Source: Lichina pygmaea (Eukaryota > Ascomycota > Lichinomycetes > Lichinales > Lichinaceae). From it: a DNA stretch of 64,000 nucleotides. How positions within the stretch are numbered: the stretch's first letter is position 1; every line of letters begins with the position of its first letter. The stretch is from the NCBI GenBank assembly GCA_963422465.1, contig OY730175.1:1612001-1676000 (forward strand). The letters run 5' to 3'. The position numbers and the translations under genes are program-made. Below, piece by piece: positions 2,604 to 56,845 of the stretch. The notes beneath the pieces are model-generated. The model made no database searches and had not been told where the DNA came from. It saw only the letters and a list, made by a program, of their open reading frames with translations.

Positions 2604-3176
2604 ATGAACCAAAGCCAGACAACTCGAACTTGTTGCTGTGGTTTTCTCTCTTGTCGTGTTGGCAAAATGGGCAAGGAATCAAAGATCGCATGCGGTGCTT
2701 GTCGTCGTGACCACGCCAAGTGTGTCGTGAGTTCTGCATCATCTTTTTGTTGTCAGTGCATCAAGAAGGGTTGTCGCTGCGACCTTCATCTCTCGGAATC
2801 AGAATGGAAGAAGATGGAGCTTGAGCGCGAGCAGCTCGAGGCTCAGCTGCGGGAGACTGATGACCAACTGTCAAAGCTGCTTCCCCGGCAGATCTGCCTC
2901 CGCCGGCAGCTGGGTCGTCTCTCACAGAAGGAGGCCGATGCCATCTGTCGTGAGCTGTCAGCCATCGAGGATCAAGAGTCCCTTGATGCTCAGGAACAAG
3001 AGGCCCTCCGCGTTATCCGCGAACAGGAGGCCTGTCAAGCTGCTGCTCCACCGTCCTTTGAGGACATCTTCTCTTCAGAGGCTTTGGCTTCTCTCGAGCC
3101 GTTGTCTCCGTCAGACCTGGTCACTGCGGATTTGCTCGGTGGTAATCCACCAGTTTCTGGTTCATCGCAGAGCTGA
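2604..3176 (+). CDS. Antisense accessory ORF of A1: Zn2Cys6-coiled-coil protein
   Basis: 190 residues on the strand opposite to gag-pol, from ATG 2604 to TGA 3174-3176. Residues about 30-60 hold six cysteines with spacing C-X2-C-X6-C-X8-C-X2-C-X6-C (core CGACRRDHAKC), which is the Gal4-type binuclear zinc cluster pattern. Residues about 65-150 are charged and helical, rich in E, Q, L and R, as in a dimerising coiled coil. The tail (about 153-180) is acidic with F and L, like an activation domain. It overlaps the last 56 bp of pol tail-to-tail and starts 61 bp from U3. M22 (2667) is an alternative start, but A2 has Ile there while M1 is kept in both. Function as a transcription factor is inferred; no homolog was searched. 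Confidence 0.7.
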   Translation: MNQSQTTRTCCCGFLSCRVGKMGKESKIACGACRRDHAKCVVSSASSFCCQCIKKGCRCDLHLSESEWKKMELEREQLEAQLRETDDQLSKLLPRQICLRRQLGRLSQKEADAICRELSAIEDQESLDAQEQEALRVIREQEACQAAAPPSFEDIFSSEALASLEPLSPSDLVTADLLGGNPPVSGSSQS

Positions 3177-6100
3177 AGTTCTCGGTTGGTTCCCACGAAT
3201 TCTCCTCTTCGTCAAATCCTAACCACTTCACCAGGTACTCAGTTTTCTGTCTGTTTCTCCGGCTGTCTAGGATCCTTTCGAAATCGTACTCTTCTTTGTT
3301 GTCCTCAAAGTGCCATTCTGTTTCGATTGCCGCGTCGCTGGGTGCTGGCTCAAGCAGTGAGACATGGAATACTCGGTGTATCTGTGCCTTTTTCAGCAGT
3401 CTCAGTCGGTAGTTGACTTCTCCAGTGCACTTCTCAATCTCAAACAGTCCGATTCGTACATGATCCAGCTTTTTGCTCAGTCGCTTCGAGCGCAGGTTTT
3501 TTGTTGACAAATAGACCTTATCCCCCCTCTCCAGGGTTGGTCCCTTCAACCTTTTGCTGTTTAGGTGGTGGCTTGTTGTCTTTTGTGTGGATTCAATTGC
3601 AGTCTTCATTTCCTCATGCATAGCAGTGAGTTTTTCGACGTTTGTTGAAGTGCCACTTCCAGCCGCCATCGCTTCCCAGCGGGGGTTTCTGCCGTAGTTC
3701 GCAAAGAACAGTGTCATGCCCGTCACGCTGTGTTGCTGATCGTTGTACGCAAACTGAGCCATTGGTAGCAGTTCTACCCAATCGTCCTGTCGGTGGTTGA
3801 CGTAGTGGCGTAGGTACTGTTCCATCGTCTGGTTTGTTCTCTCAGTTTGTCTGTCTGTTTGTGGATGGTAGGCAGTAGACATCCTTGTGTCTATCCCTAG
3901 CTGTCTTGTCCACATGTTCCAGAATTTCGAGGTGAAGAGTTTGTCTCGATCCGAGATAATCTTCGTGGGTAGCCCTCGCTGGCTAACCAATTCTTTGAGC
4001 AGGACATTGGCGAGTTCGCTCGCTGTTCCTGTCTCTCACCACAGGATCAGGTGAGTGTATTTGGTGAGTTTGTCAACGACCACCAAGATACTGTCATATT
4101 TCACCTTTGTTACCAGGTCCTCTGACCTCGGCAGCTTCACCACAAAATCCATTGTGATGGTATCCCAAGCTGCTTCTGGAAGGTCCATTTGTTGACTCTC
4201 TCCATAGGGTTTGTGGCGTGACAGTTTGTTTTTCGCACACTCTTCGCAGTTGCGAATAAATTCCATCACTTTCCGCTTCATTCCGTTGAAGTGGTAACGT
4301 CTCCGGATCTTTTCCAGGGTCTTGTCTTGCCCAGGATGTCTGTGTAGAGGTCCATCGTGATGTTGTTGAATCACGTCCTCTTGTGCGCTCTCTGGCACTT
4401 CTTCCTTGTTCGTGGCCGCAACGTTGTGGTCTAGGGTCAGGAGTGCACCCATTTCTTCAGTTTTTGCTAACTGAGGTTGAGCATAGACCAGAGTTTGTCC
4501 TTTTGTCGCAAGGATTGGGCGCTCTTCTGTCGTGTTGTCTGTCATCATATCAGGCTGTCTGCTAAGCGTGTCCGCTCGTGTGTTTTCTGATCCTTTTCGA
4601 TAGAAGATCTGGAAGTCATATGAAGCTAAAAGCTCCACCCATCGGACTTGTCGTCTGTTTAGCTTCTTCGTCATCGTGAAGTAAGCCAAATTCTTGTGGT
4701 CTGAGTACATGTCCACTGTGTACTTTGCTCCTTCCAGGTAAGGTCTCCACTCCTGGAATACGTCGACAATCGCTAACAACTCCTTGTCGTGGACATCGTA
4801 CCTGAGTTCTGGGCCAGAGAACTTTCTTGATCGGTATGCGACAGGGTGTAGGCGGTTTTCGGCGTCTGGTTGACACAAGCAAGATCCAAGTGCTTGGTCT
4901 GAGGCATCTGTCTCCATGATGATCTGCCGTCCAGGATCAAATGATGCCAGTATGGGTGCGGAGGTGAACTTCTCTTTCAGCTCCTGGAACACTCTTTCTT
5001 GGCTGTTCCCCCATGTGAAGGTTTCTTCCTTCTTTGTTAGTTCAGTCAAGGGTGCTGCTGTCCTCAAGTACTCCTTGATGAATTGTCGGTAGAAGTTCGC
5101 AAATCCCAGGAAGGATTGGACTTCTTTGAGGTTTTTGGGTGTTGGCCAGTCTTGTACTGCCGTGGTTTTTGTATCATCCATACAGATTCCTTCTGTCGTC
5201 AGGATTGATCCCAAATATTCCACTTCTTTCACGTGGAAGACGCTCTTATCAAGGCGTAACCTTATTCCTGCTTCTTGGAGCGCATGTAGGATCTTCTTGA
5301 CATGCTGTCTGTGCTCCTCCAGGGTTCCATTGGTGTAAACCAAGACATCGTCGATATAAGTGGTAACAAATATATCCAGGTATTGTCGGAGGATGGCGTT
5401 AATAAGTGATTGGAACATCGCCGGTGCATTCGTAAGGCTGAATGGCATAACAGTATACTTGTAATGCCCGTACCTTGTACGAAAGGCTGTCTTCCATTCT
5501 TCGCCATCTTTCATCCTAACCAGGTTGAAAGCGCCTCGGATGTCGAACTTGGTAAACCACTTGGCTCCTTGGATTCAGTCCTGGATTTCCGATATTAACA
5601 GTAGTGGGTAGTGATTCTTAATTGTGATCGCATTAAGCTGCCGGTAGTTGACACACAGTCGTAATTTGCTGTCCTTCTTTGGCACAAACAATATCGGGTA
5701 TCCGGCCGGTGATGTTGAAGGTCTTATGAACCCTTTCGCTAGGTTCTTGTCCAGGTAATCTCTTAAGGCCTCAAGCTCCTTTGCTGATAGAGCGTAAATA
5801 GGGCTGTGTGTGGGTTTCTTTCTGTCTTCCAGTGGAATTTTGTGATCCCACTCTTGGTGTTCTGGTAGCGTCGCAACCACTTCCTCACCAAACATCTCCT
5901 GGTAGTCTTTATACTCACTTGGCAGCTGCGGTGCCTGAGTCTCGCCCACGGCGTCATGCGTGGTGCAAAGTTGATGGTTTCAGGGCTTCATCCAAGCCAC
6001 ATAGGCTCGCCCTCGCCGGTGGTGCTTCTTCCACCCTGCATATAAGATCTCTTTGATTCTCACTCTCTCTGGCTCTGCTTGAGTTGCCAGACTCCTCTTC

Positions 6101-6550
6101 AGAAAGACTAGGTGCCTTCTTTTCCAGTCGATCCTTGGGTTTTGACTTTCCAACCACGGAAGACCCAATATAACTTCATGTGGTATCTGGACCAAGTCGA
6201 ATTCTTCTGATCTGATTGTCGTACTGTCGACACACAGTTGTAGGTTCTTGGTCTCCTTCGTCACTTGTCCTTGGTCGTTGGAGAGTGGTGTCCCGTCCAC
6301 TACCGTTAGTTGGTATGGATTCCTCTTTTCCTGAGTCGGGATCTTGTGCTTCCTGGCGAAACTTTCTGACATGAAGTTGCCAGTAGCTCCAGAGTCAATC
6401 ATGGTGTTTGTCAGGTGCCTGTTGACTCTCATCCTGATGTGAAAATGCGGACTGCAGGCTGTTGTGTCAAGGCTCTGCTCAACCCCTTCTCTCCGGAGTG
6501 TTGTCTTGCCTGCTCTTCCGACTCCAGATTTGAAGAGCACTGCTAGTTTT
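3121..6550 (-). pseudogene. A1 pol: PR-RT-RNase H-IN-chromodomain
   Basis: One frame, -1 relative to gag, entered at the slippery site 6546-6552. Protease active site DSGATGNF near 6390; RT with FVPKKD, FDIRGAF and the YIDD box near 5350; RNase H with ETDASDQALG and SDHKNLAYF; integrase HHCC (HRHPG...CEECAKNK), then the D,D-35-E core (MDFVVKLP, SDRDKLFTS, TERTNQ); C-terminal chromodomain (EYLVKWLGF...SWEPTENF) ending at 3121. In-frame stops occur at about 5575 (CGA to TGA, in QD-stop-IQGAKW), 4030 and near 5970. The polyprotein acts in cDNA synthesis and integration; the chromodomain usually steers integration to modified histones. Confidence 0.88.
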
Positions 6551-6552
6551 TT
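6493..6552 (-). promoter_or_regulatory. -1 ribosomal frameshift signal of A1 gag-pol
   Basis: Minus strand: slippery heptamer A-AAA-AAC (6546-6552) in the gag frame, directly followed by the gag stop TAG (6543-6545). After a 6-nt spacer comes an 8-bp perfect stem, TGCTCTTC (6532-6539) with GAAGAGCA (6511-6518), and a 13-nt loop. Seven loop bases (6521-6527) can pair with 6493-6499, giving an H-type pseudoknot. Pol is open in the -1 frame across the site. Confidence 0.85.
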
Positions 6553-8087
6553 GAACAACCAAGGCCCTGAGCCTGGCGTTCTGCCATGTGTCTTTCGCAT
6601 TTTTCAGTGAAGCATAGCTCCCATGCGTCTTCTCCGCAATCATCGTGTTCTTTCCCTTGCTGGCTTAGCTGGTGCTTGATGCTCCAGGCTTTCTTGTGGT
6701 ATTCTGGGCCAGGGAAGTAGTGCCTTCTCCTTTTCTCTAGGAGATGTTCCTTGCAGTGGTGGTCCTCGCATCCTTTCCAATAAGGATGTCCGCAGGCTGG
6801 TGTCGTAGCCTGGTGATGGTCCACTTGCGCTGCGATGTCTCGGGGCTGTGAGATGCTGATGGTGTCGTCCACCCATCGCGTCACTCTCGCTTTGCCATCC
6901 TCCGACAAGGTCGCATCCTGTCATCGGAGTAGTGGTGTCTCGGGAACTGGTGGCATGCCGGTTATGTCAATCTCGTAGTCTGTTGTGTTGAATTCAGAGA
7001 TCAGGTCATCCTCCCAATGAACCTTATCGATCTGGTCTTGGATTGCGTGCAGGTCCTCCAGTGACCTCTGCAGATTGTTCTCCAGTCTTTCGATGTGCTG
7101 TCTGAGATTGTCCTCCTGTCCGAGGAGTGTTGCTTCTGACCGGTTCATGGGTAGCGTGCCTCTGGGAGCCCTCGGTGGCTCCTGAATACCCTTGCCTTTC
7201 CAGGCACCGGTGGCATTCAACTGCTTACCCTTGCCTTCCTTCTTCTTCTTGCTTTGGCAGTTGGCTGCGAGGTGTCCTACCTTCTGGCAATTGTAACACT
7301 TCTGTGTTTCTTTCTTCTTTGTTGCCTGTGGTGTTGTTGCATCAATCTCCATGGGTGTCAAGCCGTACTTGTCTTGTGCTGGCGCTGTCTTTTTGCCCTA
7401 TGGCCTTGCATGCTTGCCTCACTTCTCGAGTTCTTGTTCAAACTGTCGGTTGTCGATGCGTACTGCTGTGTCAATCATATCCTTGAGGTCGGTGGGTCAG
7501 TCTCCTCGTGCGATGTCATCCTTGACTTGTTCCTTGAGAGCTTGGTAGAATAGTGCTGTCAAGGCACTGTCTCCCCATTGCGTCCTCACTGACAACTGTT
7601 GGAACTTCGCCGCAAAGTCTGATGCTGACCCTGTCTGCTGTAGTGCTTAGAGCTTTTGTTCCGCATCTCGTTCTTCATCAATGACCCCGAAGGTCTTCTT
7701 CATCTGGGTCTTGAAGGTAGAGAATCTCCCAATGATCTGCTGTGTCGTGGTCTCCATGCTAGAGGGATCTTCCTTGTTGTCGAGGAAGTCTTGTAGGTAG
7801 ACATTGAACTAGGCAAATGTTGGTCCATCCAGGTAGGAAGCTGCGAACAGCACCTTCTCCTGTTCTGTAGGGAATTGTGTGGCGTTGAATCCGTAGTAAA
7901 GCTCAAGCTGAGAGAAGAATAATTCCAATCCCCCTTGTGATCCATCGTACCTCTTCGGCGTACCTACCTTCAACGGCTTTGGAGGTAAGGTGAGGGTGGT
8001 AGGGACAGATGGTTCCTGGGCTTGCGCCTGAGGCGCAGCCCAGGCTTGGCCTGCCTGCAAAGGGGTAGGGCTGCGTGGATCTGCCAT
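6543..8087 (-). pseudogene. A1 gag (capsid-like, zinc knuckle, Cys/His motif)
   Basis: Starts MADPRSPTP at 8087, just inside the LTR. The capsid-like part contains GGLELFFSQLELYYGF and a retrotransposon-gag stretch (LFYQALKEQVKDDIARGD). CCHC zinc knuckle CYNCQKVGHLAANC lies at about 7255-7296. A later Cys/His-rich stretch (WKGCEDHHCKEHLLEKRR, about 6710-6790) precedes the slippery site. In-frame stops: TAG at about 7810 (tryptophan codon in A2), TAG near 7650, TGA near 7497 and others. The shared TAG with A0 may be inherited or an independent TGG to TAG change. Confidence 0.85.
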
Positions 8088-8115: not shown

Positions 8116-8258
8116 AGGCTGAAACTGTTAAAGGCCAGTCCACGTTCACACAGAATGTGGGTGGTCCTGTCTTCGACCGAGGAGGGCAGGGACTCAATAG
8201 ATGAATAGCAAGTGGGGTAACTCTCTTGCTATTGTCACTCGTAATGTGCGTTCAGCCT
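8116..8258 (-). promoter_or_regulatory. Self-priming pair of A1 (primer-binding site and RNA 5' end)
   Basis: No tRNA-type TGG primer site follows the LTR. Instead the minus-strand interior begins GT then TTCAGCCT (8123-8116), complementary to AGGCTGAA (8258-8251) inside the LTR, some 35-40 nt downstream of the TATA box at 8291-8300, where transcription should start. Tf1-type elements prime reverse transcription by folding back their own RNA 5' end in this way. Confidence 0.65.
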
Positions 8259-8563
8259 GGAGAGCTAATCCCTCCGGGCTCTTTGGGGGTCTTTATACAG
8301 ATGCCCCAGGGGGGGGGTCTCCTCGAGGGGTATCATCCTTTTGCGTGGACAAGCTCCTCGCTTAGCTCCTGCTCGTCCACCGGACAAGCTCCTCGCTTAG
8401 CTCCTGCTCGTCCACCGGACGAGCTCCTCACTTAGCTCCTGCTTGTCCACTGGACAAGCTCCTCGCTTAGCTCTTGCTTGTCCACCGGATCGGTCGGATG
8501 TTGTTCCGCATGACTAACACCTCTCCCTCGCTTACCTGGGCCGTTCTGGCCTAGGCCTTAACA
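8126..8563 (-). repeat. 5' LTR of A1 (438 bp)
   Basis: Same length as 2105-2542. It drives minus-strand gag-pol. TATA (TATAAAG) at about 8292-8298; tandem 35-bp palindromic units at about 8347-8490. Differences to the other LTR are C/T or G/A at CpG in every case I checked (for example CGCTC/CACTC, CCGG/CTGG). Confidence 0.92.
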
Positions 8564-8568
8564 GTGGG

Positions 8569-8966
8569 GTAACTCTCCTGTGCTATTGTCTCAGTACGAT
8601 GGGTTTGTATTGTTTGTTCAGCCTGGAGAGCTAATCCCTCCGGGCTCTTTGGGGGGTCTTTATACAGATGCCCCAAGGGGGGGGGTCTCCTCAAGGGGTA
8701 TCATCCTTTTGCGTGGACAAGCTTCTTGCTTAGCTCCTGCTTGTCCACCGGACAAGCTCCTCACTTAGCTCCTGCTTGTCCACCGGACGAGCTCCTCGCT
8801 TAGCTCCTGCTTGTCCACCGGACAAGCTCCTTGCTTAGCTCCTGCTTGTCCACTGGATGAGCTCCTCGCTTAGCTCCTGCTTGTCCACCGGATCAGTCAG
8901 ATGTTGTTCCGCATGACTAACACTCCTCCCTCACTTACCTGGGCTGTTCCGGTCTAGGCCTTAACA
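8569..8966 (-). repeat. 3' LTR of A2, inner piece
   Basis: Continuation of 2006-2104 after the A1 insertion. Together about 497 bp, against 427 bp for the other A2 LTR; the difference equals two extra 35-bp units in the U3 array, so the array changes copy number. Confidence 0.88.
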
Positions 8967-9027
8967 CTATCCTCTCCCTCCAAGGGTTCTGTCCCCAGAT
9001 CCTTTTTGTTCCTGCTCCTCTTTTGTC

Positions 9028-9600
9028 ATGAACCAAAGCCAGACAACTCGAACTTGTCGTCGTGGTTTTCTCTCTTGTCGTATTGGCAAAATAGGCAAGG
9101 AATCAAAAATCGCATGTGGTGCTTGTCGTCACGACCATGCCAAGTGTGTTGTGAGCTCTGCGTCATCTTTTTATCATCAGTGCATCAAGAAGGGTTGTCA
9201 CTGCGATCTTCATCTCTCGGAATCAGAATGGAAGAAGATGGAACTTGAGTGCAAGCAGCTTGAGGCTCAGCTGTGAGAGACTGATGACCAATTGTCAAAG
9301 TTGCTTCCCCGGCAGATCCACCTCTGCCAGCAGCTGGGTTGTCTCTCACAGAAGGAGGCTGATGCCATCTGTCGTGAGCTGTCAGCCATCAAGGATCAAG
9401 AGTCCCTTGATACTCAGGAACAAGAGGCTCTCTGCGTTATCTGCGAACAGGAGGCCAGTCAGGCTGCTGCTCCACTGTCCTTTGAGGACATCTTCTCTTC
9501 GGAGACTTTGGCTTCTCTTGAGCTGTTGTCTCTGTCAGACCTGGTCGCTGTGGGTTTGCTTGGTGGTAATCCACCAGCTTCTGGTTCATCGCAGAGCTGA
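9028..9600 (+). pseudogene. Antisense accessory ORF of A2 (decayed)
   Basis: Same position, length and reading as 2604-3176. It starts MNQSQTTRTC, with a stop after residue 82 (CGG or CGA-type codon to TGA) and then open to 9600. The zinc-cluster region keeps CGACRHDHAKC, but the fourth cysteine reads Tyr (FYHQC) and the arginine after it is His. The two copies together point to an ancestor with all six cysteines and FCRQC at this site. Confidence 0.75.
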
Positions 9601-12600
9601 AGTTCTCGGTTGGTTCCTACAAATTCTCCTCTTTGTCAAATCCTAACCACTTCACCAGGTACTCAGTTTTCCGTCTGTTTCTTCGACTATCCAGGATCCT
9701 TTCGACATTGTACTCTTCTTTGTCATCCTCGAAGTTCCATTCTGTCTTGATCTCTGCGTCACTGGGTGCTGGTTCAAGCAGCAAGACATGGAATACTTGG
9801 TGTATCCTTGCTTTTTGTGGTAGTCTCAGTCAATAGTTGACCTTCCCAGTGCACTTCTTGATTTCGAATAGTCTGATTTGTACGTGGTCCAGCTTTTTGC
9901 TCAGTCACTTTGAGCGCAGGTTTTTTGTTGATAGGTAGACCTTATCCCCCCTTTCCAGGATTGGTCCCTTCAACCTTTTGTCGTGTAATCAGCGGGTGGT
10001 GGTGTTCTGGGCACAGTCGATCGTTGTTTTCATCATCTCGTGCATAGCAGCAAGTTTGCTAACATCGACAACATTGCCTCCTGCTGTTGCCTGCCATCGG
10101 GGGTTTCTTCCATAGTTCGCAAAGAACAGTGTTGTCCCTGTCACACTGTGTTGCTGGTTGTTGTACACAAACTGGGCTATTGGTAGCAGTTCCACCCAGT
10201 TATCCTGCTGGTGGTTGATGTAGTGTTGTAGATACTGCTCTATTGTCTGGTTTGTCCGCTCAGTTTGTCTGTCAGTTTGTGGGTGGTAGGCTGTTGACAT
10301 CCTTGTATCAATGCCAAGTTGCCTTGTCCACATGTTCCAAAATTTCGAGGTGAAGAGTTTGTCTTGATCTGAGATAATTGTCTTTGGTAGCCCTCGGTGG
10401 CTTACCAGCTCTTTGAGTAGGACACTCGCAAGTTTGTTCGCAGTTCCTGACTCTTTCCACAGGACCAGGTGGGCGTATTTGGTGAGCTTGTCAACAACCA
10501 CCAAAATGCTATTGTATACCACCTTTGTTGCTGGGTCTGTTGACTTTGGCAACTTGACCACGAAATCCATCATGATAGTTTCCCATGGTGCCTCGGGTAG
10601 GTTTATTTGCTGTGCCTGCCCGTAGGGCTTATGTCTTGATGGTTTGTTCTTCACACACTGTTCGCAGTTGCGGATGAACTCTGTCACCTTGCACTTCATT
10701 CTGTCAAAGCGGTAGTTCCTTTGGATTTTCTCCAAGGTTTTATCTCACCCGGGGTGTCTGTGCAAAGGCCTGTCATGGTGCCTCCAGATCACCTCCTCTT
10801 GTGCTCTTTCTGGCACAATTTCCTTTTTGTTTGCTGTCTTGTGGCCAAGAGTAAGGAGTGGACTCTTTGTTTCAGTTGTTGCCAGTTGGGGTTGGGCATA
10901 GACCAGGGTTTGTCCTTTTGTTGCTAGGATTGGGTGTTCCTCTGTTGTTTTGTTGTCCATTAAATCTGGTCGTCTGCTGAGTGCGTCTGCTCAGGCATTC
11001 TCAGTGCCCTTCCAGTAGAGGATTTGAAAGTTGTATGATGCTAACAACTCTGCCCATCGAACTTGTTGTCAGTTTAGCTTCTTTGTTGTTGTGAAGTAAG
11101 CTAAGTTCTTGTGGTCCGAGTACATGTCTACCGTGTATTTTGCCCCCTCCAAGTAAGGCCTCCATTCTTGGAATACGTTGATGATTGCTAACAACTCTTT
11201 GTCGTGAACATCGTACCTCAGTTCTGGGCCAGAGAACTTTCTTGATCAATACACGACAGGGTGTAAGTGGTTGTCGGCGTCTGGTTGACACAAGCAGAAT
11301 CCCAATGCTTGGTCCAAGGCATCAGTCTCCAGAATGATTCTCTTCTCAGGATCAAATGATGCCAAAATGGGTGTGGAGATGAATTTATTCTTCAACTCCT
11401 GGAAGGCCACTTGTTGGCTCTCCCCCCACCTGAAAGATTTGTTCTTTCTGGTTAACTCTGTCAAGGCTGCTGCTGTTCTTGAGTAGTCCTTGATGAATCG
11501 TCAGTAGAAGTTTGCAAATCCTAGGAAGGATTGTACTTCTTTGAGGTTTTTGGGTGTTGGCCAGTCTCGTACTGCTGCCGTCTTCGTGTCGTCTATTCGG
11601 ATTCCTTCTGTTGTCAGGATCAACCCCAAATATTCCACTTCCTTCGTGTGGAAAACACTTTTATCAAGGCGTAACCTTATTCCTGCTTTCTGAAGCACAT
11701 GTAGGATCTTCTTGACATGCTGTTTATACTCCTCCAAGGTTCCATTGGTGTATACCAAGACATCATCAATGTAAGCGGTGACAAATATGTCCAGGTATTG
11801 TCAGAGGACAGTGTTAATAAGTGATTGGAATATCGCCGGTGCATTCGTAAGGCTGAATGGCATCACAGTATACTCGTAGTGCCTGTACCTTGTACGAAAG
11901 GCTGTCTTCCATTCTTCACTGTCTTTCATCCTAACCAGGTTGAAAGTGCCTTGAATGTCGAACTTGGTAAACTATTTGGCTCCTTGGATCCAGTCTTGGA
12001 TTTCTGATATTAATGGCAGTGGGTAGTGGTTTTTCACTGTAATCACATTTAGCCACCAATAATCAACACACAGTCGAAGTTTGCCATCTTTCTTTGGCAC
12101 AAACAATATCAGGTATCCAGCTGGTGATGTTGAAGGTCTTATGAACCCTTTCGCTAGGTTCTTGTCCAGGTAGTCTCTCAGGGCCTCAAGCTCTTTTGCT
12201 GACAGAGTGTAGATAGGGCTGTGTGTGGGTTTTTTTCCGTCTTCCAGCGGAATCTCGTGGTCCCACTCCTGATGTTCTGGTAGCATTGTGATCACTGTTT
12301 CTTCGAACATCTCCTGGTATTCTTTATACTCACTTGGCAACTGTGGTGCCTGAGTCTCGCCCACAGTGTCTTGCGTGGTGCAAAGTTGTTGTGTTCGGAG
12401 TTTCATCCAGGCCACACAGGCCTGCCCGCACTGGTGGTATTTCTTCCACTGTGTCAGTGAGATTTCTTTAATCGTCACCCCTGGTTCTGATGTGACCAGT
12501 GTTCTGTCCGGAAAGACTAGTTGCCTTCTTTTCCAGTCAATCCTTGGGTTTTGTTTTTCCAACCACAGAAGTCCCAATATAACTTTGTGTAGTATCCAGA

Positions 12601-12960
12601 CCAAGTCGAATTCCTCTGTTCTGATCGTTGTGCCATGGACACTCAGTCTCAGGCTCTTGGTCTCCTTCATCACTTGTCCCTCGTCTTTGGAGAGTGGTGT
12701 TCTGTCCACTACCATCAACTGGTAGGGGTCTTTCTTGCCTTGGACTGGAACCTTGTTTCTTCTGGCAAAGCTTTCTGACATGAAGTTGCCAGTCACACCA
12801 GAGTCAATCATGGCCTTAGCCAACCGCCCATTGACTCTGATCTTGATGTGAAAGTGCGGGCTGCAGGCTGTTGTGTCAAGGCTCAGCTTGACTCCTTCCT
12901 CCCGGGGTGTGGTCTTGCCTGCTCTTCCGACCCCAGTTTTGAAGAGCACTGCTAGTTTTT
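9545..12960 (-). pseudogene. A2 pol remnant
   Basis: Homologous to A1 pol throughout: protease DSGVTGNFMSESF (about 12770-12810), RT FVPKKDGKLRLCVDY, RNase H ETDALDQALGFCLCQ, integrase MMDFVVKLPKS and TERTNQTIEQYLQHY, chromodomain region decayed near 9640-9760. Many in-frame stops (for example near 11780, 11495, 10980 and 9985). The YIDD region is interrupted. Confidence 0.85.
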
Positions 12961-12961
12961 T
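12902..12961 (-). promoter_or_regulatory. -1 ribosomal frameshift signal of A2
   Basis: Same geometry as in A1 to the base: AAAAAAC (12955-12961), TAG (12952-12954), 6-nt spacer, 8-bp stem (12941-12948 with 12920-12927), 13-nt loop, 11-nt linker, second stem 12930-12936 with 12902-12908. One pair of the second stem is G-C here and A-T in A1, so pairing is kept. Confidence 0.8.
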
Positions 12962-14313
12962 GAGCTGTCTAGGCCCTGGGCCTGATGCTCTACCACGTGT
13001 TGTTTGCATCGTGTGGTGGTGCATCATTCCCCCAGGTCTTGGTTGCAATCATCAGCAATGTCTCTGACCTGTGTGATGCTGAGGGTATCATCAACCCATC
13101 ATGACACTTGTGTCTCCCCTATTTCTGATAGGGTTGTGTCCTGTTGTTGAAGGACAGGTTTGTCAGGGACTGGTGGTGGCTGGGCTTCCTTGTCATCAAC
13201 CCGTTCCTCCATATAGCTGGTTGCGTCAAACTCTGAGATCAGGTCTTCCTCCCAGTGGATTCTGTCAACCTTCCTTCAGACCTTGTCGAGGTGGTCCAAG
13301 GTTTCTTGAAGTATGTTCTCAAGTTTTTCAGTGTGTTGTCAGAGGTCGTCCTCCTCTCTGAGGAGTGCCGCCTCAGGGTGATTGTGGGGCAGTGTGCCTT
13401 GGGGGGCTCTCTGGGGCTCCTCTGTCTCCCTGCCTTTCCAGGCGCTCGTGGTGTTCAACTACTTCCCTTTGCCCTTCTTGTCCTTCTTCTTGCTCCTGCA
13501 GTTCACCGCAAGGTGGCCCACTTTCTGACAGTTGTAACACTTCCGTGTCTCCTTCTTTCGTGGTTCCACCACATTGATTTCCATGGGTACCAGGCTGTAG
13601 TTATCTTTTGCAGGTGTTGGCTTTTTCTTCACCCATGGTTTTGTCTGCTTGCCTCACTTCTCAAGCTCTCTCTCGAACTGTCGGTCGTCGATGCGAGCTG
13701 CAGTCTTGATCATTTTGTAGAGCTCGGTTGGTCAGTCTCCTTGCACGATGTCATCCTTGACTTGTTCCTTGAGGTCTTGGTAGAATAGTGCTGTTAGTGC
13801 ACTGTCCCCCCACTGGGTTCTCACTGCTAGTTGTTGGAACTTCACTGTGAATTCCGATGCTGATCCAGTTTGCCACAGTGCTTGGAGCTTTTGTTCCGCA
13901 TCCCTCTCCTTGTCAAGGATCCCAAACATCTTTCTCATAACTGTCTTAAAGGTTTTCAAGCTTCCCATGACCTGTCGGGTATTGTCTTCTTGCTCCTTGG
14001 GGTCTGCCTGATTGTCTAGGTAATCCCTTAAGTAGACGTTGAACCAAGCGAAGGCTGGTCCTTCCAGGTAGGAGGCTGCAAATAGCACCTTCTCCTGGTC
14101 TGTCAGGAACTGGGCTGTGTTGAACCTATAGTAGAGCTCCAGTTGTGAGAAGAACAACTCCAGTCCTCCCCTGGATTCATCATACCTTTTCAGGGCACCT
14201 ACCTTCAAGGGCTTTGGGGGTAGGTTAACAATAGGTGCCGCCTGGACAGCCTGGGCCTGAGCCGCCTGGGCTTGGGCCACCTGAGAAGGGGTAGGGCTTT
14301 GTGGATCCACCAT
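12952..14313 (-). pseudogene. A2 gag remnant
   Basis: Starts MVDPQSPTPSQ at 14313. Open to 13732 with GGLELFFSQLELYY and AFAWFNVYLRDYL, then broken by TGA at the same site as A1 (GD-stop-PT). The zinc knuckle CYNCQKVGHLAVNC is at about 13495-13536. Compared with A1 it lacks roughly 200 bp that encode the Cys/His-rich motif before the frameshift site. Confidence 0.8.
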
Positions 14314-14351
14314 TGTATCAAGTCAGTGTCCTATATGTTCAAGGCTGAAAC

Positions 14352-14778
14352 TGTTAAAGGCCGGGCTGGGTTCACACAGAAACCAGTACGGTCTGTTGCT
14401 TCGCAGGGTGGATTCTAGACAGGGACTTGGTAGAGGAATAGACAGGTGGGGTAACTCTCCTGTGCTATTGTCTCAGTACGATGGGTTTGTATTGTTTGTT
14501 CAGCCTGGAGAGCTAATCCCTCCGGGCCCTTTGGAGGGTCTTTATACAGATGCCCCAAGGGGGGGGGTCTCCTCGAGGGGTATCATCCTTTTGCGTGGAC
14601 AAGCTTCTTGCTTAGCTCCTGCTCGTCCACCGGACGAGCTCCTCGCTTAGCTCCTGCTTGTCCACCGGACAAGCTCCTCGCTTAGCTCCTGCTCGTCCAC
14701 TGGATCGGTCGGATGTTGTTCCGCATGACTAACACTCCTCCCTCGCTTACCTGGGCTGTTCCGGCCTAGACCTTAACA
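14352..14778 (-). repeat. 5' LTR of A2 (427 bp)
   Basis: TGTTAAAGGCC at 14352 to CTTAACA at 14778, followed by target duplication CCACT. Three 35-bp U3 units. The self-priming 8-mer TTCAGCCT is at about 14499-14506 and its partner AGGCTGAA at 14342-14349, two bases inside the LTR edge as in A1 and B. Confidence 0.88.
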
Positions 14779-15587: not shown

Positions 15588-17072
15588 ATGAGTACCTCAG
15601 GAGCAACCAACCCCAACTTCCCAGATGGAAAGATTAGCGTCGCCAAGCCAGACCTGTTCTACGGCGAAAGAAACAAAGTTGACGACTGGCTCATGCAACT
15701 CCAAGTCTACTTTCAATTCCAACCAGAGACAAAGCTGCCTAAGGAGAAGTAGCCCCTCTTCGCAACCACTTACATGAGAGGCAATACTTATTGATGGATC
15801 AAGCCCTACGTCAACAAACACCTCTCAGGAAACAGAGACCATGACGGCACAACAGAATGGATGACGAAATGGACACAATTCAAGGACAAGATCAAAAGGA
15901 TCCTTGGACTATCTAACAAAGACAAAGTGGCTATACGAATAATCCAGCACATCAAACAACAACGCTCAGCCGCAGAGTACACCACGCAGTTCAAACAATA
16001 CTCAGTACTGACCAACTGGGACGACGATGCCCTGATAGTCATGTACTGACGTGGACTCAAGGAAAACATGAAGGATGAAATCACCTTCGACAGATGAGCA
16101 GTCGACACACTGGACAAACTCATCGCACAAGCAATCGACATTGATGACAAACTATTCGAGCGAGCGATGGAGAAACGCCATGACAGAGGATACAGCCACC
16201 CCGCATGGCATGTGAGCAACCACTACAAGCCGCCTAACAAGGCACCACCACATGACCCATATGGCTATGCACCCATGGAACTGGATGCAGTCCACCACAA
16301 GGGAAGGTTCACAAAGGGAAGGAACAACAAAAAAGGGAAAGCACTGAAGTGCTATGCCTGTGGCAAGCTAGGCCACATGGCGAAAGACTGTTGTTCAAAG
16401 AACAAGGTGCACCGACAGCAACTTAATACGCTCGACGGAGACTGGAATGTCATCAAGCCAGAGGACCCACCAGGAGAGGCTCAGCTATCCCTCGAACAAT
16501 GGGACAACTACAATCAGACATTGGAAGCAGCCCACCAACTGGCAACATCAGGAGGCAAGGACCTACCAGAACTAACAGGTCAGGACAAGGGACAGGAGCC
16601 CTTAACCACCTCTGATGGGGACTGAGACGAACCCGAGTCTATCAAAGAAGAAATACCACAAGGAAGCTATGCTTACAGCATGGACCCACGAAATCTACAG
16701 CACGGTGAACTACAGTGGAGGTTTTGCACAAGGCACTACTGCACCTACCACGAACAACTACGAAGGTACGGAGGACATTCACCCTACCACACCACCTGCC
16801 ACAAGCATTGGGTCAATTGCGAGAAGGATGCGTGTGAGATCCATCTTTGGGACAAACGCCAACACACCGCATTCCCCGGGCACACACATGATTGGCATGA
16901 ACGCTTCATGTTCCTACAGCAAGGCAACAACTACAACTGCTACGTCAACAATTGGCAGTACTGCCTCAAGCCTGGATATAACAAGCATCAGCAAGACAAA
17001 TTCATGAACAGATTCCTCAGAACTGATGGGAATGGCTGGACCTATTGCCCAGTCAGTGGTAAGACACTTTGA
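15588..17072 (+). pseudogene. B gag
   Basis: ATG 15588 (MSTSGATNPNF), 18 bp after the LTR. Capsid-like part with KPDLFYGERNKVDDWLMQLQ. CCHC zinc knuckle CYACGKLGHMAKDC at about 16351-16392. Cys/His motif CEKDACEIHLWDKR at about 16820-16860. Stops: TAG near 15750, TGA near 15793, 16048, 16096 and 16623. The frame closes with TGA at 17070-17072; pol continues in the -1 frame. I see no canonical slippery heptamer here. Confidence 0.82.
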
Positions 17073-17104
17073 TCAGGAAAAGACTGAACTCCCTTGTCAA
17101 GGGG

Positions 17105-20100
17105 TGACATCGGGAGCTCAACAACATGACCCCTAGCAACGCAAAGCACCTGCGATTGCCTGTGTCACTATACGCCAACACGCCGATACAGACATACGCA
17201 CTTGTTGACTCTGGAGCCAGTGGGAACTACATTTCAAGACAACTTTACGATACCCTCAGCACTGGAAGGAGACGCAAGCAGCAGCCCTATCAGCTTGTGA
17301 TGGCAAATGGACAGACAGAGCTAGTCTGCCATAAGACGCAGCCAATGGAAATGGTTACCGGACACCATGCTGAAAGGATCCACCTTGATATCGTCGAGTT
17401 GGCCACTCAGGATATCTACTTGGGGATACCTTGGCTAAAGAAGCACAACCCAGTTGTTAACTGGAAGACAGGAGTACTCACGTTTAGGAACTGCACTAAC
17501 AACACAGCTCAGACCTGTTACCAGCCGCAGAAGGCGTGGACAGATGAGGGAAGGAGTCCTCAGTGGAACCTCACCGACAGAAAGGATGACTCTCAAGAGA
17601 AGAGGTCTGCCTCAACAGGCACACCCCGGAACCAGGTGGCCAAACAGTCAGAGATGAAGAGAGAGGAAGTTGTTAACCCTCTGGAGATCCCTGAAGAGTA
17701 CTGACCTGGGTATGATAACCTCTTTCAGGAAGAGACAACGACAGCAGCGTTGCCTAAGCACCAACCTTGGGATCATGAGATCAAGTTGCAACCAGGGACA
17801 GAGCCAGGATTTGGACCAATTTACCAGTTATCAGAGAAAGAGCTCCAAGTACTTCGCGAGTACCTGGAGGAAAACCTGAAAAAGGGTTTCATTCGAGAAT
17901 CTCAATCACCAGCAGGATACCCGATACTATTTGCACCAAAGAAAGACAGAAGTCTTCGACTTTGTGTGGACTACAGGAAACTCAACGACATTACCATCAA
18001 GAACTGATATCTGTTGCCAAATGCGAACGAATTGCGAGACAGGATCAGCCAAGCTACAATCTTTACCAAGCTGGACTTGAAAGGAGCATACAACCTGATA
18101 CACATGAAAGAAGGAGAAGAATGGAAGACAGCCTTCAGAACCTGATACAGACACTACGAGTATCTGGTTATGCCATTCGGACTCACAAACGCACCAGCAA
18201 CATATCAAGCATTGATCAACAACATCATCAGAGCACACCTGGACCAAACAGCTATCGCCTACCTGGACGACATTCTTGTCTACTCGAACACACAACAGGA
18301 ACATACCAAGCATGTGAAGGATGTTCTACAATGCCTACAAGAGGCAGGGCTCAAGCTCAACCTGAAGAAATGCGAGTTCAACAAACCGGAAGTTGAATTC
18401 CTCAGATACATCATAGGGATTGAAGGGATCAAGATTGACCCTGAGAAAATCAAAGTGATTCAGCAATAGCCAACACCGACATCAGTTAAGGAAGTACAAG
18501 CCTTCCTGGGATTTGCCAACTTCAACCGACAGTTCATCAAGAACTACTCACAGATGGCAACACCACTGACAGAACTCACAAAGAAGGACATGGAGTACCG
18601 GTGGACGGAGAGACAACAAAAAGCATTCCAACAGCTCAAGGACACTTGCGCCAAGGAACCAGTTCTCCTCAACTTCAAGACAGGCCAGCCGACACAAATC
18701 AAGACAGACACTTCAGATCAAGCAGTGGGAGCATGTCTATGCCAACAGGCAGACAGCAAGTGGCACCCAGTTGCCTACTACTCACGAAAGATGACACAAG
18801 TGGAACGAAACTATGATATCCACGATAAAGAGCTACTGGCAGTCGTCAACGCACTCAAACACTGGAGAGTGTACGCGGAAAGCAGTTCTGAACTCACCAT
18901 TCTCACAGACCACAAGAATCTGACAACGTTCACGACAACCAAGAAGCTGAACAGACAGCAAGTCAGATGGGCTGAACTCCTAGGGCAACACAAGTTCAAG
19001 ATCTTGTACACCCCTGGACAAGACAATAGGAGAGCAGACACACTAAGCTGACGAAAAGACCACATGGAAGATGATGAACGCCAAGGAACAATCTTACAGC
19101 AGGACCAGCAAGGAAACCTGGTGCCCCAGCCACAGATCAACAAGCTCACAGCAGAAGACACTGAAGAACTAATAAGGAACTACCACGACAATCCAGCACA
19201 TGGTCACCCAGGAATCTCCAAAACCACAGACCTTATCCAACAGGCAGGGAACAATGTCATTAACCTCCGACAACATGTCACAAACTACATCAGCAAGTGT
19301 CTACTATGCCAGAAAAACAAATATGGGAGACACAAGCCATACGGAGAAGGACACCCGAACATGATACCGAGAGGCCTGTGGGAAGACGTGTCAATGGACT
19401 TTATCACAAAGCTACCCAAGTCCAAAGACCCAGTCACAGGAATCACCTACAACTTGATTATGGTGATAGTGGACAGATTCACAAAATATCTAATAACAGT
19501 ACCATTCAAGGAGACCCACACAGCAGAACAGTTGGGACACCTCTTACTGGACAGACTAGTCAGAGACCACGGAGTTCCAATCACGATCATTACAGACAGA
19601 GATAAACTCTTCACGTCCAACTACTGGAAGACAATCAGTGCAGCCATGGGAACAAAACCCAAAATGTCTACAGCCTATCACCCACGAACTGACAGCCAGA
19701 CGGAGCGAGCGAACCAAGTCCTGGAGACTTACCTACGGCATTACATCAACAAAACCCACAGCAATTGGGTACAGTTATTACCGGTGGCACAGCTGGCAAT
19801 CAACCAGCACAGATCAGACTCAACAAAGGAATCGCCATTTTTTGCCAATTTTGGACAACATGCAAACATCAGGATGCCAAGCAGAGCTTCACCAAACACG
19901 GAGAAAGCACTCCAACACGACAAGCTCCTACGACAAACGCACACGATGATGAGGCACTACCTTCAAGAGACCTCAGAAAAAATGCAATGTCAGATGGACA
20001 AGAAATTGAAAATGGCACCTCAGCTAAAGAAGGGGGATAAAGTCTACCTCCTCACAAGAAATTGGAAAACAAAGAAACCAAGAACAAAGAAACTGGACCA

Positions 20101-20425
20101 TGTTAAGGTCAGACCATTTTCAGTCGAAGAAAGAACTGGACCAGTCAACATCAGACTGCGACTACCAAGGGATGCCAGAGTCCATCCAAACTTTCATATA
20201 TCAATGATTGAACCAGCCGACCAGAGCACACCCTTGCAGGAAATATTCCATTACCAACCCGAAGAAGAACAAGAGTTTGAGGTTGAACAGATCCTGGCTA
20301 GGAAAGGTCAGCAATACCTTGTCAAGTGGAAAGGATACCCAGACTCAGAAAATACCTGGGAACCACTCAAGAACCTCGCGAACTGCCAGCTTCTTCTGCG
20401 ACAGTTTCGGCAGGAGCAGGACTGA
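17105..20425 (+). pseudogene. B pol: PR-RT-RNase H-IN-chromodomain
   Basis: One frame, -1 to gag. Protease ALVDSGASGNYIS (about 17200); [21 protein letters not shown] and YLDD (about 18260); RNase H KTDTSDQAVGACLCQ and DIHDKELLAVVNAL; integrase zinc region HGHPGISK...CLLCQKNK, core MDFITKLPKS, TDRDKLFTS and TERANQVLETYLRHY; chromodomain QYLVKWKGYPDSENTWEPL at about 20310-20370, ending with TGA after 20422. Stops at 17702 (TGA), 18005 (TGA), 18143 (TGA), 18467 (TAG) and 19049 (TGA). At least three of them sit where related elements have arginine. The last 450 codons are open. Confidence 0.88.
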
Positions 20426-54433: not shown

Positions 54434-54654
54434 TCAAGAGTTTGCGCTCTGACTCGCGCCCTGATAGAAGCCCGGCACCTCCTCGTTCAAGGGCCCGGTG
54501 GGGACCTCCTCCTCCACCTGCGACAGCCGGCTCGAGTCCTGGAACCAGCCGTTGTAGCCTTCGTTGGCCTTGGGCGTCATGCCGCCGATGGTGCTGCCCG
54601 TGTAGCTTGGATGCCAGGGAGGGTGCATCGGGAAGTTGCTGCTTGGCGCTCGAT

Positions 54655-54692
<38 letters not shown>

Positions 54693-55019
54693 GACGACGG
54701 CTCCGGCGTCGACGTCACCGGAAAGTGCGCCGGTCCGTCCGGCGGGGGATAGACCGGTGGTGGTGGCGGCGGCGGTGGCGGCGGCGGTTGTGCCGGCACG
54801 TGCTTGTAGTACTGTGGCGACGGATAAGGATTAGAGTGGTTGAGGGAAAGCGATTCGAGGTGGCCGTATGACATCGAGCGGGTCTGCAGAGGCCAGCCCA
54901 TTTCCTCCCGTGGCATGCCGTACGTGTAGGTGCCGACGCTGTCTCGATGTTGTGGGTGATGATGCTGGTGTTGTTGTTGTTGCTGATGTTGCTGATGTTG
55001 CTGCTGCTGCTGCTGCTGC

Positions 55020-55056
<37 letters not shown>

Positions 55057-55722
55057 GCGGTGGTGGTTGTGGTTGTTGCTGGTGCTGGTGATGGTGATGT
55101 TGGGGATGCTGTTGCGGCTGCAGCGTCGGCAGGTTGTACGGCCCCTGAAACGAAGGCACCGACGGCGGGACCGGAGAGTCGGCCAAGCGGTAGAAGCTCG
55201 CGGACGGGTCTTCGAGGACGGCTTTGTGGCCGTTCGACATGGGCGACTGGTCCAGGTAGGGCGAGCTCTCGAGCGTCGGTGGCCGGTCTGGCCGGGTCGG
55301 GTCGAAGGCGGCCGAGACGGGCGGAGCCGTGGACATGTGCGGCAACGAAGGCCGGGACGCCACCGGGAGCGGTGGCCTGCCCAAGGACGACGTTGCGCTG
55401 CCGTTCCGCTGCCGAAGCTCCATGGGCGCGGCGAAGCCGGCCGACGGAGGCGCGCTCGAGTCGGGAGGGTAGGGGTGAAAGGGCTGCTGCATCGGGTCTC
55501 GCCCGAGAGCCTGTTGGTGTGGCGGCGACGACGAGGACGAGGACGACTCTCCCGAGGCAGCGCGCTCCTGCTTGAGTGGGGGCTGTGAAGGTCGCTGTAC
55601 CGGCGGCTGTTGGTCCACGGGGAAGAAGTTGCACTCCTTCTTGAGCCGGATGCAGTTGGCGCATCGGCCTTGTGTGTCGTCTTGAGCGAGGAGACATCTT
55701 ATCTTTCGTCTCCGGCAATGAC
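54434..55722 (-). CDS. Zn2Cys6 transcription factor, 5' exon missing in assembly gap
   Basis: 3' part of a fungal binuclear-cluster regulator. The exon starts after an AG acceptor at 55723; the first residues HCRRRKIRC...GRCANCIRLKKEC give five of the six cluster cysteines (C-X6-C-X10-C-X2-C-X6-C). The first cysteine and the start codon must lie upstream, in the N gap. After NFFPVDQQPP comes a long low-complexity protein: Ser/Pro-rich, a His/Gln region with about 20 or more Gln (55000-55060), two polyproline tracts (54660-54700, 54755-54790), and a conserved-looking C-terminus GYNGWFQDSSRLSQVEEEVP. DNA-binding regulator; the target is unknown. I recall the cluster sequence in unnamed Pezizomycotina regulators. 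Confidence 0.85.
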
Positions 55723-55827
55723 CTACAACCATCGCCGTCAGCCTGCCGGGGGGGGGGGGGGGGGGGGAGGTGCATGTCACAGACAGCCGTAGCGCAGGTA
55801 AAAAAAAAAAAAATCGATGGGGTGGGT

Positions 55828-56027
55828 NNNNNNNNNNNNNNNNNNNNNNNNNNNNNNNNNNNNNNNNNNNNNNNNNNNNNNNNNNNNNNNNNNNNNNNNN
55901 NNNNNNNNNNNNNNNNNNNNNNNNNNNNNNNNNNNNNNNNNNNNNNNNNNNNNNNNNNNNNNNNNNNNNNNNNNNNNNNNNNNNNNNNNNNNNNNNNNNN
56001 NNNNNNNNNNNNNNNNNNNNNNNNNNN
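55828..56027. other. Assembly gap (200 N)
   Basis: Exactly 200 N, so the size is probably arbitrary. It lies in the 5' part of the Zn2Cys6 gene and is preceded by a G20 run (55748-55767) and an A13 run, which likely caused the gap. Confidence 0.98.
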
Positions 56028-56845
56028 GATGCGGCAAACGCAGAATTTCTATAGGGCAGAAAAGGAAAAAGGGCTCCGGCGGGCCAGGAACAGAGTGCGA
56101 GGAAGGGGCTGTATGAACCGAGCCGGCTCGACCGTGCCGCTGCGCGCGGTGACGAGCACGCGGCGGACGATATAGCGAGGGGGGGATGAAGAGGGGGGCG
56201 GAAAGAGGGGGGGTGGGGGGGGGGGGGGGATGTGTACTCGTACAGTAGAGGACGATCGAGAAGCGGGGCGCGCGGCGGGCGCAGGCCCGTCCGTGTTGGT
56301 CGCAAGAGGGACGTCCTCCTCGAAGGCAGGTGAAGCGGAGGAGGAAGCTCTAAGCCGGTCTCGAAATCAAGGTGGCAGAGCCGAGGGGCTTTAACGGGTT
56401 GCAGGCCAAAAAGTAAGAGTGAAGTATCACTTCGAGTAGAAGCGGATGCTTGTACCAGTAGTGTATTGCCTCGGTGGAAAGTCAAGAGATTTTGAGGTTA
56501 GAGGAGACGAGGAGGGTGTGTTGGTTGTGGATGCGTTGGGTTGGGTTTGATTGGAGCCTGGGCGTGCAAAAGCTACTGGCTAAGTCAGCGATGCGTACCT
56601 CGTAGTAGTCTTGTAGTCGGCAGGTGCGACGATCCGACACCAAAACAGGATCGGCCCCGTTCACCAAAGGCTGGAGGGGGAGACATGTGGAGGTGCTGGT
56701 GCTGATGGAGGTACGGTACGGAGCTAACGGGGCAAGGGAAAAGAAACAAGACCGCCGCCGTCTTTTCTCCCCCCCCCCATCGAGCTGAAGCAAAACAGTC
56801 AAAATATGAAGCCCACACACACGTACTGTACATGTGTGCACAGTC

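Follow-up and report, generated by a model that had tools for sequence, protein, structure and literature searches.

Antisense genes in LTR elements

Antisense genes occur in LTR elements of plants and fungi as well as in retroviruses, and those of LTR-retrotransposons are described in a review as having no known function (PMC7264820). In the fungal element Boty from Botrytis cinerea, pol and the 3' LTR are separated by an antisense gene named brtn (PMC7264820), and the Boty gag-pol comprises a CHROMO domain (PMC4227169). For brtn in Botrytis cinerea and Sclerotinia the source is Zhao et al. 2011, as cited in PMC7264820, PMC8365987, PMC4227169 and PMC5987419. In plants the antisense frames named aORF-3R (gene23 of Grande, RIRE2, TRP28 of Retand) are located between pol and the 3' LTR as well; the Grande product is nuclear and TRP28 of Retand is predicted to bind DNA (PMC7264820, PMC11963269). 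In HTLV-1 the bZIP protein HBZ is expressed in antisense from the 3' LTR and regulates the LTR of its own virus (PMC3185765).

Here, we analyse a window of 64,000 nucleotides from Lichina pygmaea, in which an open reading frame opposite to gag-pol is found beside the 3' LTR of a Ty3/Gypsy element. Like brtn, it is an additional gene of a fungal chromodomain Ty3/Gypsy element and runs opposite to gag-pol, in the interval from pol to the 3' LTR. The statement of the sequence-only reading that no described chromovirus has such a gene was too strong, since Boty combines antisense brtn with a CHROMO domain. The passages on brtn in the citing papers mention neither a zinc cluster nor cassette exchange nor dyads in U3. 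The plant aORF-3R share orientation and location but belong to another host kingdom, no zinc cluster is named in the passages describing them, and Retand is a member of a non-chromovirus lineage. HBZ resembles the proposed Lichina protein in being encoded in antisense at the 3' LTR and in acting as a transcription factor on the LTR of its own element; it is, however, a bZIP protein of a human retrovirus with proven transcription, whereas transcription of the Lichina gene is predicted. There is no bZIP family among the Pfam matches of the antisense protein and its relatives. An antisense gene beside the 3' LTR is therefore already known from LTR elements, but one encoding a zinc cluster was not found among the best-ranked results in the open-licence PMC literature and, within that literature, appears to be new.

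The host element

The element in question (element 1 of the window) is encoded on the minus strand and bounded by a 3' LTR at 2105-2542 and a 5' LTR at 8126-8563, each of 438 bp with the termini TGTTAA...TTAACA. The two LTRs match at 99% over 300 nt, and a GTGGG target duplication flanks the element at 2100-2104 and 8564-8568. Pfam detects in the minus-strand gag-pol a protease, reverse transcriptase (RVT_1), RNase H (RT_RNaseH), the integrase zinc domain (Integrase_H2C2), SH3_Tf2-1 and Chromo. The 3' end of pol with SH3_Tf2-1 and the chromodomain occupies 3121-3990, and the remaining pol together with the CCHC part of gag (RT, RNase H, protease and zinc knuckle) is located at 4036-7361 and is interrupted in the window copy. 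The order of reverse transcriptase, RNase H and integrase is that of Gypsy elements, a chromodomain is found at the C-terminus, and LTRs as well as a target site duplication are present; the host element is a Ty3/Gypsy chromovirus. Between the 3' LTR and the ATG of the antisense frame there is a plus-strand leader of 61 nt (2543-2603), and its minus strand holds a purine run that we take to be the polypurine tract of the element.

A different chromodomain Gypsy element is located on the plus strand at 16167-20425; among ORFs of at least 90 aa no zinc-cluster antisense ORF was found downstream of its pol. Tandem 50-nt repeats rich in GTGAGC/GCTCAC were observed at 355-539 of the window.

The antisense reading frame and its copies

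The antisense ORF comprises 190 codons on the plus strand (2604-3176) and encodes a zinc-cluster-like protein. The sequence-only reading had placed it between the end of pol and the 3' LTR; the ORF is present, but the pol frame ends at 3121, so that the two overlap by 56 nt (3121-3176). Its length alone is modest evidence for a gene because 20 of 2000 first-order Markov resamples of the 661-nt region contain an ORF of at least 190 aa. This leaves room for the explanation that the frame is open by chance and that only an antisense RNA, or nothing at all, is functional, which has to be judged from the copies.

The host genome (32.5 Mb in 8 contigs) was searched for such copies. For subfamily A, to which the window copy belongs, at least 150 scored matches were obtained from 276 candidates, and 47 among the 150 matches listed are free of stops (counted by hand). 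A diverged subfamily B, found through the database relative P0030, has 61 matches at 85% identity or more, 53 of them without stop (counted by hand). For comparisons between A and B the 30 top-scoring loci of each subfamily were used, a choice that favours intact copies; 23/30 A and 29/30 B loci are without stop. Mean stop numbers are 0.03-0.23 in the ORF frame versus 2.5-6.9 in the sense-strand frames, by which sense coding over this stretch is ruled out. Two protein database searches (76 and 81 matches) revealed no distant relatives, i.e. only proteins with at least 54% identity to P0001; scoring in the second search was limited to the 8000 candidates with the most words in common.

A stop at codon 8 occurs in seven of the 30 A loci. 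It was considered as a sign of gene death, but recurrent CpG decay is favoured: in the copy checked (L010) it sits on the sole CGA codon, and there is no other site where all seven loci differ from the majority. Moreover, this stop is located upstream of Met22. By eye, ORF copies often differ by replacement of Arg with Cys, His or Gln (CGN to TGN or CAN), which is a mark of CpG decay.

Codons 1-21 show no protein-level constraint between A and B (pN 0.32-0.35, pS 0.36 in two pairs, with only about 41 and 16 sites), and translation may therefore start at codon 22. The frame from Met22 (2667-3176, plus strand) is the probable functional one. Met22 (ATG at 2667) is present in 24/30 A and 30/30 B loci and the database matches include forms of 169 aa; a protein of this length starting at Met22 is the likely product in subfamily A. 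The conservation of Met1 counts against this start: it is kept in 29/30 loci of either subfamily, with the good context GCCATG or ACCATG in 27/30 A and 29/30 B loci (GCTATG in the window copy).

Selection on the antisense protein

Between subfamilies A and B dN/dS in the ORF frame amounts to 0.26 (ratio of the medians dN 0.237 and dS 0.913 over 900 pairs), in comparison with 0.38-1.82 in the other five frames. The lowest of these off-frame ratios, 0.38, comes from a sense frame and is explained by the third positions that this frame and the ORF have in common. Three individual A-B pairs gave 0.25-0.26 with bootstrap limits of 0.16-0.40. If only transversions are counted, the median is 0.085 at second positions versus 0.242 at fourfold sites (900 pairs), so that CpG decay, which appears to be strong here, does not account for the A-B constraint. 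Protein-level constraint across copies, which the sequence-only reading had named among the points to check, is indeed found between A and B, and it is frame-specific.

The constraint is unevenly distributed along the protein. Measured in two A-B pairs, it is strongest in codons 22-62, which hold the cluster (pN 0.09-0.10, pS 0.61-0.65), followed by the helix-like stretch (pN 0.19, pS about 0.6) and the tail (pN 0.21, pS about 0.37). The A-B alignment contains 36 gap columns in the block 2881-3080 but none in 2681-2880 and 3081-3280, and the net difference in frame length is 14 codons.

Within the subfamilies the ORF frame is unremarkable, a pattern to be expected from drift of the copies once inserted: A-A pairs show 0.40 (other frames 0.36-1.26) and B-B pairs 0.63 (others 0.39-1.33). 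These within-subfamily ratios are not frame-specific and were dropped as evidence of coding. Together with the lengths reached by resampling they are what speaks for a chance frame. Against it stand the A-B ratio and its persistence in transversions, by which a chance ORF is rejected, and in addition the retention of 357 of 360 cluster cysteines, the 53 of 61 open B copies and the distribution of the gaps with their net difference of 14 codons. That nothing beyond an antisense RNA is functional here is accordingly extremely improbable, and the antisense ORF is a real protein-coding gene under purifying selection between A and B. An older subfamily C gives weaker contrasts because its copies are decayed: all five copies examined (L062-L066) contain stops, and median pN/pS is 0.51 for C-B and 0.43 for C-A (20 pairs each). 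A further C locus, L067, was left out as it has no frame with the anchor words.

Zinc-cluster signature and protein architecture

The six cysteines C30, C33, C40, C49, C52 and C59 (cluster at 2691-2780, plus strand) fit exactly to C-X2-C-X6-C-X8-C-X2-C-X6-C, and the first loop is basic (R34, R35, K39), both as originally read from the sequence. Zn2Cys6 domains (PF00172) follow the spacing C-X2-C-X6-C-X5-12-C-X2-C-X6-8-C, and the antisense protein agrees with this family in spacing as well as in its basic loop. The 357 retained cysteine positions are those of 60 loci, and the loop between the second and third cysteine reads RRDHAK in the window copy and RRDRAK in several B rows. The cluster is followed by a charged, helix-like stretch at 2790-3038, a candidate coiled coil with net charges of -5 (A) and -6 (B), and by a net-acidic tail containing F and L at 3039-3173, a candidate activation region with a net charge of -4; charges were taken from one copy of each subfamily.

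The family search is less clear. At E 10 the window copy has no Pfam Zn_clus match. Zn_clus was found in 10 of 17 alignment members with a best E of 7.6e-4, and in 7 of 9 relatives scored, in the right register and with at best 16.4 bits versus the Pfam gathering cut-off of 21 bits, which none of the nine passes. From the regulator layout proposed by the sequence-only reading the six-cysteine motif, the charged helix-like stretch and the net-acidic tail are confirmed, but a clean family match is missing: some relatives are recognised, the window copy is not, and the scores shown stay below the cut-off.

A search of the whole genome with Zn_clus (E up to 10) gave 40 places, 34 of them over the cut-off, and by eye none overlaps a listed ORF copy. 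For a fungus of such genome size 34 places seem few. One of the host Zn_clus genes is located in the window itself (54434-56485, cluster at 55616-55720, 25.3 bits; part of this ORF reads N). A profile-profile comparison with 20 of the 34 host domains gave a probability of 71% and an E of 3.7e-5 with all six cysteines in register. With a profile trained on host domains single copies reach medians of 14.0 bits (B) and 6.6 bits (A), and the maximum among 1320 shuffle and off-frame controls (1305 rows reported) is 12.7 bits, above the A median. Much of this signal is due to the cysteines because the best of 1200 cysteine-keeping shuffles reaches 19.4 bits (median -1.1). Matches to PDB entries are weak and non-significant, among them Leu3, Hap1 and Put3 (E 0.15 or more) and Gal4 (E 0.31); a coiled coil (BAP29) ranks first in two PDB searches, one of which also returned RING fingers.

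Resemblance to Gal4, Leu3, Hap1 and Put3 comprises the cysteine spacing, the basic first loop and the succession of cluster and helix-like stretch. In contrast with Gal4-type regulators the Lichina protein is much shorter, has no regulatory middle domain and shows Zn_clus scores below the cut-off. Its X8 loop is without the proline that is usual in Gal4-type clusters and is found in many of the host Zn_clus domains. Altogether the protein appears zinc-cluster-like and would bind zinc through these cysteines; its Zn2Cys6 identity is supported but weakly so.

This weakness matters for a second explanation, in which the protein is selected but serves as an accessory nucleic-acid-binding factor (with a role in nuclear import, chromatin docking or the handling of RNA) rather than as a transcription regulator of the LTR. 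Proteins that combine a cysteine cluster with a coiled coil can have other purposes, and for plant antisense ORF proteins the review suggests accessory roles similar to those in retroviruses (PMC7264820). We consider this explanation unlikely, since the six-cysteine spacing with its basic loop is that of Zn2Cys6 proteins and the gene adjoins a dyad-rich U3 with which it is exchanged.

Dyad repeats in U3

Adjoining the antisense gene, the U3 of the 3' LTR contains an array of four 35-nt units (2326-2465) that form 19-nt dyads of the GCTCGTCCACCGGACGAGC type. There are 185 exact copies of GCTCGTCCACCGGACGAGC in the genome, both strands counted, whereas the control read backwards does not occur. 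Exact 9-nt dyads are found in U3 of 23/30 A, 26/30 B and 7/13 C loci, compared with 15/600, 29/600 and 14/260 resampled U3 sequences, respectively. A and B share CTCGTCC as their commonest dyad arm, next to CTTGTCC; in C it is CTCTGCC. The arms differ between lineages yet remain self-complementary, i.e. both halves were changed together; the half-sites differ from plain CGG triplets. A-type units occur in 30/30 A loci and B-type units in 30/30 B loci, with one B locus matching also two A units, and the units are situated directly upstream of the ORF in all 60 loci fetched, which were chosen with bias as best ORF matches. The LTR at 1420-1767 of the window has dyad arms of the C type (TGGCAGAGATAGT / ACCATCTCTGCCA), and no tandem units were found in it.

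The dyads could also have their role in RNA. U3 is part of the genomic RNA of LTR elements, and the repeats might form hairpins at its 3' end, or they might result from template switching, by which inverted repeats are homogenised; the target of the protein would then be elsewhere. Tandem inverted repeats are prone to slippage, and unit numbers vary from 1 to 5 in A loci and between 1 and 2 in B loci. Yet the array is found about 50-190 nt upstream of the TATA-like box of the sense strand (2270-2276), where sites of an activator are expected, and the spacing of its units is regular at 35 nt. On these grounds an origin of the dyads in RNA structure or replication seems somewhat unlikely.

Proposed function

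Most probably, albeit with considerable reserve, the product of the antisense gene is a small DNA-binding protein that consists of a divergent Zn2Cys6-type cluster, a helical and probably dimerising middle and an acidic tail, and that binds the dyads in the element's own U3 and adjusts transcription of the element. Its mRNA would start in U3 or in the leader beside the 3' LTR, and the protein would dimerise through its helical middle. From the placement and symmetry of the dyads we infer that the dimer may bind there, and the bound protein would then alter transcription of the element and perhaps also of its own gene. These features suggest an element equipped with a control protein of its own.

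As the tail is acidic, activation is the first guess for the sign of regulation. The opposite sign would make the protein a self-limiting repressor that lowers gag-pol transcription and restrains copy number, as HBZ does with sense transcription of HTLV-1; this antisense product of the 3' LTR lowers sense transcription and may raise antisense transcription (PMC3185765). Repression appears to be quite unlikely here, as an acidic tail with F and L in both subfamilies suits activation better and the family is strongly amplified, both being weak arguments.

The Lichina ORF combines a recognisable DNA-binding motif with measurable protein-level selection and adjoining candidate target sites. The question whether a retrotransposon encodes its own transcription regulator becomes directly testable with it, and regulators of this type are readily tested in yeast.

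Exchange of U3 and antisense gene

The U3 and the antisense gene do not share the history of the gag-pol beside them. Element 1 and the B copy L061 are 94-99% identical in gag-pol (250-nt blocks), whereas their U3 and ORF are only 64-79% identical. With an older neighbour at about 8640-14700 the relation is reversed: U3 and ORF match at 92-93% and gag-pol at 64-90%. Identity switches near 3280, at the pol end; the pol-side comparison covers elements 1 and 2 of the window and L061. U3 and antisense gene moved as one cassette between gag-pol backbones. This fits a regulator that travels with its own sites, although it is no proof, since U3 adjoins the ORF and a single crossover moves both even if they have no functional link. 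The exchange offers natural pairs in which specificity can be tested. The older neighbour itself has an A-type U3, an ORF at 9028-9597 with one stop and one lost cluster cysteine, and a diverged gag-pol.

A more far-reaching interpretation is possible but rather doubtful at present. U3 and the antisense zinc-cluster gene could constitute a portable, private transcription cassette, i.e. a Gal4-like regulator with cognate dyads, both of which diversify together in the particular lineages (CTCGTCC in A and B, CTCTGCC in C). Backbones of gag-pol would trade such cassettes by recombination, and several privately regulated families would share one backbone within one genome. The A and B proteins differ widely yet share the core of the dyad arm, and in-step change of protein and site would thus be visible only against C.

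A further observation concerns the backbone. In the RT part of pol (5568-5586, minus strand) the same in-frame stop is present at 81 of 82 genome sites with exact context, only one being without it, and it is common to the A element of the window and the B copy L061. Copies with this stop may have been amplified by mobilisation in trans or by readthrough of the stop.
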